DNA of 36,652 bases from Rhodospirillales bacterium (GTDB lineage: Bacteria; Pseudomonadota; Alphaproteobacteria; BOG-932; Roseiterribacteraceae): positions 1-36,652 of the forward strand of contig JAQGIE010000136.1 in NCBI GenBank assembly GCA_028291365.1, read 5' to 3'. This document shows positions 26,409 through 32,721 of the stretch, one piece after another; the stretch's first letter is position 1; the number at the start of each line of letters is the position of its first letter. Both the position numbers and the translations under genes were made by a program. The notes beneath the pieces are model-generated. The model was given only the letters and a program-made list of their open reading frames with translations. It ran no database searches and was not told the origin of the DNA.

Positions 26409-28530
<2,122 letters not shown>

Positions 28531-31552: not shown

Positions 31553-32275
31553 TCAGTGACCGACATTGGCGCCGCCATCGACGGTCAGGATGGTGCCATT
31601 GACGTAACTCGCGCCGGGCGAGGTCAGGAAGCGCACCGCCGCCGCGACTTCATCGATATGGGCGAGACGTTTCATCGGGTGGCTTTCGGTCAGGCGTTCG
31701 CGATCCTGGTCGGCGAAAAGCTGGGTCGCCTGGCTTTCGATCAGGCCAGGCGCCACCGCGTTGACCAGAATTCCGTGCGCCGCACCGGCTGCGGCATAGA
31801 CCCGCGTCAGCGCGTGCACGCCCTCTTTCGACGCCGCCCAGGCCGGATGTACTTCGAGCCCGCCGCGCCGTCCCGCCACCGCGCCCAGATTGACGATGCG
31901 TCCGCCGCCCGCGTTGCGCATCACGTCGAACGCTGCGGCACAGCCGTAGAACGTGCCGGTCAGATTGACTGCGATGGTGCGGTGCCAGTTGGCCTCGTCG
32001 GCTTCGGCGATGTCGGTGGGCACGAAGATGCCGGCGCTGTTGATCCAGATCGCCAGGCCGCCGGGCTGGTCGGCGGCGCGCGCCGCCAGCATGAACACCG
32101 CGTCGCGATCGGTGATGTCGATATTGAGCGGCAGCACGCGCTCGCGCTTGGGCACCGCTTCGATATCCGCAGCGACGACGATGAAACCATCTTCGGCGTA
32201 GTCGCTGACCAGTCGCGAGCCGAGGTCACCGGCGGCCCCGGTAATGACGACCGCGCCCTTTTTTGGTCCAGACAT
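31553..32275 (-). CDS. SDR family protein lacking catalytic Ser and Tyr
   Basis: The 240-aa protein has a normal SDR frame: cofactor loop TGAAGDLG (12-19), INSAG (N79), VNLTG (N104), and a C-terminal end typical of SDRs (SPGASYVNGTILTVDGG). At the active site the expected Ser is Ala132 (VNLGAVAG) and the expected Tyr is Trp146 (HPAWAASK), while Lys150 remains. Trp differs from a Tyr codon by two bases, so a simple read error is unlikely. It therefore cannot use the standard SDR mechanism. It may bind nucleotide as a regulator or have another chemistry. The downstream exported protein may be cotranscribed. Confidence 0.82.
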   Translation of the reverse strand: MSGPKKGAVVITGAAGDLGSRLVSDYAEDGFIVVAADIEAVPKRERVLPLNIDITDRDAVFMLAARAADQPGGLAIWINSAGIFVPTDIAEADEANWHRTIAVNLTGTFYGCAAAFDVMRNAGGGRIVNLGAVAGRRGGLEVHPAWAASKEGVHALTRVYAAAGAAHGILVNAVAPGLIESQATQLFADQDRERLTESHPMKRLAHIDEVAAAVRFLTSPGASYVNGTILTVDGGANVGH

Positions 32276-32336: not shown

Positions 32337-32418
32337 AAAGCACGACCCGAACCGATTGGATCGGATCGTGCTTTCTACCTGTTTGATTTGGCGCGTTTTC
32401 CCGCCGCGAAACGCGCTA
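32337..32418 (-). repeat. Double-hairpin repeat, copy 2 (fused to the stop codon of the gene at 32416-32721)
   Basis: Read on the minus strand it starts TAGCGCGTTTCG (identical to copy 1), with TAG as the stop codon of the upstream gene. Hairpin A occupies 32391-32418. After 16 bases comes the imperfect palindrome B (32337-32374), arms matching at 16 of 19 with core ATTGGATCGGATC shared with copy 1. Confidence 0.8.
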
Positions 32419-32721
32419 GCGCCCGACATATTGGGCGAAGGTCCAGCCCAGCTCGGTCCGCTGGTCCGGCCACAGGACCCGGACCTTGGCCGCGCCAAGC
32501 TTGCGATCCAACGCGACTTCGATGATGCGCGCGCCTGCCTCGATGCGGCGGCAGCCCTTGATCGCGCCCAACCAGACCGTGTCACGGCGCGCGGTCGCCT
32601 GGGCCGCCTCGGCCAATTGCGGCTTGCCCCGGCACAGCACCATCCCCGCCGTCGACGTGAAATCGGCAGCCACGGCCGTCTTGGCCGCAACCAACAGAAG
32701 GACGATTGCCAGATACCGCAT
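32416..32721 (-). CDS. Small exported protein, unknown function
   Basis: The 101-aa protein has a signal peptide (YLAIVLLLVAAKTAVAA). The mature 80-odd residues contain two Cys (MVLCRG and IKGCRR), which could form a disulfide in the periplasm, and a basic Ala-rich middle. It ends WTFAQYVGR with TAG supplied by a repeat element. No family is recognised. It is divergent from the DUF2076 gene. Confidence 0.65.
   Translation of the reverse strand: MRYLAIVLLLVAAKTAVAADFTSTAGMVLCRGKPQLAEAAQATARRDTVWLGAIKGCRRIEAGARIIEVALDRKLGAAKVRVLWPDQRTELGWTFAQYVGR

Follow-up and report, generated by a model that had tools for sequence, protein, structure and literature searches.

An SDR-fold protein of Roseiterribacter with alanine and tryptophan at the positions of the catalytic serine and tyrosine

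The window analysed here is a 36,652-nucleotide stretch of a Rhodospirillales genome (4.37 Mb in 271 contigs). On its minus strand, at 31553-32275, it encodes an SDR-fold protein in which Ala132 and Trp146 stand in place of the catalytic Ser and Tyr. Both residues are found in both genomes analysed from the genus Roseiterribacter, all eight orthologues found outside the genus keep Ser and Tyr, the gene is under constraint and its set of cofactor motifs is intact by sequence. By ancestry and fold the Ala/Trp protein is an SDR, but it is not an SDR enzyme of the standard type. It is probably, although by no means certainly, a lineage-specific NAD-binding pseudo-dehydrogenase, which would have lost Ser and Tyr on the Roseiterribacter branch and then been held by purifying selection in a non-catalytic role.

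Fold, cofactor motifs and catalytic positions

The open reading frame starts with ATG and encodes 240 amino acids, a full-length classical SDR. This assignment draws on the translation, alignment, a structure model and Pfam (adh_short_C2, E=1.2e-44; adh_short, E=3.3e-36). A named NCBIfam family was rejected: 215 models match, and the best 25 all fall under their cut-off (top score 166.2 against 296 bits). The structure model was built from five sequences (mean pLDDT 78.6, pTM 0.83) and has the SDR fold. Compared with solved SDRs it gives Z values of 26.6-28.1 in the best 50 matches, the best of these (Z 28.1) having an rmsd of 2.5 with 221 residues aligned. An earlier model, based on only two sequences, was of low quality (mean pLDDT 51.5). 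Loop 134-142 of the five-sequence model has a pLDDT below 50, and no conclusion rests on the geometry of the pocket.

All of the following features lie on the minus strand. The TGxxxGxG cofactor motif is present as TGAAGDLG (residues 12-19; 32219-32242), of which residues 12-17 and 19 are invariant in a nine-row family alignment. Asp37 (32165-32167) is placed at the end of β2, where an acidic residue as a rule favours NAD(H) over NADP(H); its presence suggests that NAD(H) is the preferred cofactor. Asn79 (32039-32041) belongs to the N-x-A-G motif. The Asn-Ser-Tyr-Lys tetrad is incomplete: Asn104 (31964-31966) and Lys150 of the YxxxK motif (codon AAA; 31826-31828) are there, and codon comparison identifies Ala132 (GCG; 31880-31882) at the Ser position and Trp146 (TGG; 31838-31840) at the Tyr position. 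Three alignments to solved SDRs likewise put A132 on the column of the catalytic Ser and W146 on that of the YxxxK Tyr. Asp37, Asp53, Asn79, Asn104, Lys150 and Pro176 are identical in all ten family members, the two from the genus and the eight from outside it. The original prediction, of an SDR that has exchanged Ser for Ala132 and Tyr for Trp146 but kept the Rossmann loop, both structural Asn and the Lys in an otherwise healthy frame, is therefore borne out by translation, alignments and Pfam, and the frame is intact and full length in the window and in the second genome of the genus, TMPK1.

The changes were set against 40 comparison SDRs, 34 from the window's genome and 6 from other genomes. 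Two proteins of a different motif type (L059 and L060, see below) were left out of this set; with them added, Tyr and Lys are each conserved in 40/42. Of the 13 positions conserved in at least 90% of the set, 11 are unchanged in the genus and two, S132 and Y146, are replaced. At the 70% level the genus differs at 11 of 45 positions, seven of which vary in the eight outside orthologues too, leaving V54I, S132A, Y146W and E163A. The genus has thereby lost E163, a residue that is frequent among SDRs and that all the outside orthologues keep. Among the 86 positions invariant in those eight proteins, 18 differ in the genus; at four of these (171, 211, 219 and 233) the residue of the genus is the commonest one in other SDRs. 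The active-site loop 136-141 (31853-31870) is remodelled, reading RRGGLE in the window and RRGGLD in TMPK1 where the eight orthologues have Q/H at 136, L/V at 137 and G/S at 141. At position 151 the genus has Glu and all eight orthologues have Ala.

These replacements bear on the idea, unlikely in our judgement, that the protein is an enzyme of altered chemistry. NAD(H) and Lys150 would then be catalytic, an acid at 141, a water or a substrate hydroxyl would replace the Tyr, and Trp146 would shape a new pocket. The remodelled loop with R136, R137 and E/D141, and the replacement at 151, would suit such an enzyme, and the retention of Lys150 together with the new acid at 141 leaves room for one. 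There are also published parallels. Eugenol synthase has the SDR fold without this Tyr and is reported to depend on its Lys132 (PMC1991597), and BcSDR from Burkholderia cenocepacia, with LxxxK, is proposed to use Ser131 or Asn83 (PMC11614110). However, in the Ala/Trp protein the Ser has gone as well, and the Trp must fit at the place of the substrate carbonyl. Residue 141, moreover, is a candidate from sequence alone and lies in the loop modelled at a pLDDT below 50.

Distribution and origin of the Ala/Trp pair

The one other genome of the genus in the analysis is that of Roseiterribacter gracilis TMPK1. Its locus lies on BOPV01000001.1, under the name Rhodospirillales bacterium TMPK1, and was counted once. 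The published description names this soil strain Roseiterribacter gracilis and places it in the family Roseiterribacteraceae (PMC11164329). Its orthologue is 90% identical to the protein of the window, also carries Ala132 (codon GCA) and Trp146, and stands in a near-identical gene order. A sequencing or assembly error is unlikely, because this separate genome has the same two residues.

Outside the genus, Ser and Tyr are kept in 8/8 orthologues found (G067, G082, G186, G219, G308, G383, G117 and G385), which belong to other alphaproteobacterial families and are 47-54% identical over nearly their full length. They share the TGAAGD and HPA(Y/W) motifs with the Ala/Trp protein, from which they differ in their intact Ser/Tyr pair. 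A draw of 385 genomes from the class (314 well-complete, 276 genera) gave 13 matches at 1e-34, namely the two genus members, seven at 47-54% identity and four at 37-42% that served for comparison only; the eighth orthologue was added by gene-order searches around relatives (5, 1 and 2 genomes searched). In the large genome draws the seven best candidates per genome were scored, so relatives may be missed. The other genus of Roseiterribacteraceae was represented by three genomes. A 33% match (E 3e-31) occurs in one of them; the remaining two, of which one is only 65% complete, show no match at 1e-30. In a draw of 398 genomes from the phylum the window itself was the sole match at 1e-60. The viral collection yielded one 35% relative, an ordinary SDR by profile, and among plasmid records the best 5000 matches were all below 60% identity, with 37-40% in the best 20.

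The codons of the eight orthologues are TCG/TCA for Ser and TAT/TAC for Tyr, against GCG/GCA and TGG in the genus, so the change from Ser to Ala took at least one base change and that from Tyr to Trp at least two. Since Ser and Tyr are found in all eight, the change to Ala/Trp is placed on the stem of the genus. The original prediction had asked whether Ala and Trp are conserved in orthologues. The answer is divided: they are in both genomes of the genus and in none of the eight proteins outside it.

A tree of 23 rows, which included 7 of the 36 other SDR-like proteins of the window's genome, places the genus pair as sister to the eight Ser/Tyr orthologues (100/98 and 100/97), with the family stem at 100/100. 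The paths from the family ancestor are 0.47 and 0.51 for the genus pair and 0.72-1.20 for the eight sisters, and are thus the shortest of the ten, on a tree in which the placing of the ancestor hinges on the comparison rows and columns 132 and 146 are included. The comparison rows are long-branched, and the chosen outgroup does not fall on one side.

Two further features of the Ser/Tyr orthologues may be recorded. In the copy from G067 (L013) the conserved Pro is followed by Tyr (NAVAPY), where the other seven have Gly. Each of the five family f114 genomes (L025, L026, L028, L029 and G385:C85:5178-6611) has an oppositely oriented RraA-like gene next to the orthologue; one of the five copies of this gene was tested with PF03737. 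No match to this gene at 1e-8 was found in the window's genome (G000), TMPK1 (G001), G002-G004, G067 or G082; G186 has a weak one, located elsewhere. The RraA-like neighbour is a local link and possibly a hint, but only a hint, at the ancestral reaction or substrate.

The window's genome has 38 SDR-like places including that of the Ala/Trp protein, and all but one of the 37 others (36 proteins) were examined, the exception being a 29-residue fragment at a contig end. With L059 and L060 counted, the Tyr position is occupied by Tyr in 34 and Ser in 2, the Ser position by Ser in 32, Thr in 3 and Asp in 1, and the Lys of the motif is Lys in 34 and Arg in 2. Ala at the Ser position or Trp at the Tyr position occurs in none of these 36 proteins. 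L059 (G000:C203:4600-5500) and L060 (G000:C124:7400-8700) have SNSLR at the YxxxK motif, with both Tyr and Lys replaced; they are not of the same type as the Ala/Trp protein, as the Lys is replaced there too. L050 (G000:C89:14500-15800) has Asp at the Ser position and keeps Tyr and Lys, a pattern that we take to resemble pteridine reductase/FolM. Full-length matches to the Ala/Trp protein elsewhere in the genome are 25-40% identical, so there is no close intact paralogue that could take over. A recent duplicate freed from constraint was rejected on the same values, the contig-end fragment (69%) being the one exception.

Selection and gene neighbourhood

Between the window and TMPK1 the gene differs by 80 synonymous and 25 amino-acid-changing codons. 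The dN and dS values are 0.066/0.777 (NG86), 0.063/1.13 (YN00) and 0.060/1.12 (ML), giving a dN/dS of 0.05-0.085 that is only approximate because dS is near saturation. By NG86 the dN is the second lowest of seven gene pairs, the six neighbours ranging over 0.029-0.26. The amino acid differences are unevenly spread, with 2/67 at residues 123-189 and 23/173 elsewhere (Fisher p 0.018, for a region picked after viewing the differences; p is 0.049 and 0.057 when the cut is made in two other ways), and the silent differences number 26 within 123-189 and 54 elsewhere. The same deficit of amino acid changes at 123-189 is found in 4/4 Ser/Tyr pairs compared. The low rate of change in this region is the usual constraint of the family and nothing beyond it. 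As only two genomes carry Ala/Trp, and most of their sites agree at 90% identity, constraint on 132 and 146 alone is not separable from that on the rest of the protein.

These values weigh on the explanation that the gene is decaying after a recent loss of function. Its starting point is sound, as the Ser and Tyr of 8/8 outside orthologues mean that the ancestor was most likely canonical, and E163 has been lost as well. However, the frame is intact in two species, dN/dS is low across a dS of 0.78-1.13, the paths from the ancestor are the shortest among the ten family members, and the change from Tyr to Trp takes two base changes. Given this conservation, decay is disfavoured and appears highly improbable. 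According to the original prediction, Ser/Tyr orthologues combined with relaxed selection on this copy would point to a decaying gene; the orthologues are indeed of that kind, but the selection is not relaxed. Its proposal that the protein is selected despite the lost residues finds support in the shared Ala/Trp pair, the low dN/dS and the lack of any rate acceleration. Two marks of an SDR pseudoenzyme, loss of catalytic residues and purifying selection, are present as judged from these comparisons.

The order common to the window and TMPK1 is a second SDR, an MsrA-like gene, an aldehyde dehydrogenase, a small protein, the Ala/Trp SDR, a small protein, DUF2076, DUF1345 and an acetyltransferase-like gene; the MsrA-like and acetyltransferase-like labels were assigned by us from sequence and the other names come from Pfam. 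Downstream on the strand of the SDR in the window lie the small protein, which has no Pfam match and a start that by eye resembles a signal peptide, and then the aldehyde dehydrogenase. TMPK1 has an extra ORF of 671 amino acids (L010 8850-10865, plus strand) between the aldehyde dehydrogenase and the MsrA-like gene, with no counterpart there in the window. A promoter and terminator scan around the SDR recognised none. An inverted repeat at 32337-32374 (17-nt arms, 88% complementary, 4-nt loop), not called by the terminator scan, sits between the small gene at 32416-32721 (minus strand) and the start of the SDR.

The second SDR of the window (27769-28530, minus strand) has Ser, Tyr and Lys intact and is 94.9% identical to its TMPK1 counterpart (L010 11820-12581). 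It raises the question of whether the Ala/Trp protein could form a hetero-oligomer with one of the cell's intact SDRs, serving as the subunit without catalytic function, an arrangement like that of BbsCD which we regard as decidedly unlikely. SDRs are commonly tetrameric, which counts for this reading, and the fold matches of the model include human ketoacyl reductase, a heterotetramer (4cqm, 4cql). The BbsCD paper, by its title, concerns a heterotetrameric SDR with inactive pseudoenzyme subunits. The second SDR shares the strand of the Ala/Trp gene and lies at a distance of 3.0 kb in the window and 5.1 kb in TMPK1. It is, however, only 29% identical to the Ala/Trp protein and is not adjacent to it, an aldehyde dehydrogenase and an opposite-strand gene lying between them, and as nearly the whole region is collinear in both species this proximity says little. 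Adjacency to an active SDR gene of the kind seen for BbsCD was not found in either genome, the second SDR being the nearest intact one in both.

Possible role and comparison with other SDRs

Under the explanation that we favour, that of an NAD-binding pseudo-dehydrogenase, the catalytic Ser and Tyr of a classical SDR would have been lost along the lineage to Roseiterribacter, and the resulting Ala/Trp protein would have been under purifying selection since then. NAD(H) would still be bound through the Rossmann loop, Asp37, Asn79 and Lys150. In SDR chemistry the Tyr acts as the acid/base and the Ser as its partner. Because both have gone, and the ring of Trp146 is expected to fill the carbonyl site on the substrate side, the protein would be unable to carry out ordinary carbonyl/alcohol redox, and its selected job would for that reason be non-catalytic. 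This job would most likely be NAD-dependent ligand binding or sensing, or else contact with a non-SDR partner. A more detailed version, in which an NAD-loaded binding or sensing protein uses Trp146 as a ligand contact over the nicotinamide together with the charged loop (R136, R137 and E/D141), is offered tentatively and is rather doubtful as it stands. A literature search covering titles and the beginnings of abstracts gave, among the matches listed, no SDR-derived sensor with an Ala/Trp pair, and no mention of a WxxxK SDR.

Human HSDL1, with Phe for the catalytic Tyr, is a further precedent for the loss of this residue. The nearest published case found, going by the account given in PMC11614110, is BcSDR, which has the SDR fold and the TGxxxGxG motif, keeps the Lys and has a non-polar residue in place of the Tyr, a replacement reported there as conserved in Burkholderiales. 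It differs in that the catalytic Ser is kept and the Tyr is replaced by Leu, whereas the Ala/Trp protein has Ala and Trp; and it was solved with NADP+ (PMC11614110), whereas Asp37 suggests NAD. BbsCD, from anaerobic toluene degradation, is likened to the present protein by description, its paper's title referring to an SDR relative as an inactive subunit; bbsC and bbsD were cloned together as bbsCD, while the Ala/Trp SDR is without an adjacent SDR. NmrA, HSCARG/NMRAL1 and MAT2B are SDR-related proteins described as acting through protein contacts and sensing NAD(P), the sensing by MAT2B being a speculation of its authors (PMC3793261). MAT2B keeps the S/Y/K triad and resembles nucleotide-sugar SDRs, in contrast to the Ala/Trp protein, which is FabG-like and classical. 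A review covers pseudoenzymes more widely, including some whose catalytic residues have been relocated (PMC10211241).

Relative to the known SDR pseudoenzymes and Tyr-less SDRs, the replacement of both Ser and Tyr, with Trp at the Tyr position and across the genus, is new. It provides a clean natural experiment, in which the loss of two catalytic residues can be assigned to a single branch and nearly all other conserved positions were kept. With Ser/Tyr sisters at hand and TMPK1 in culture, retention for binding only can be tested directly against other chemistry in an SDR.
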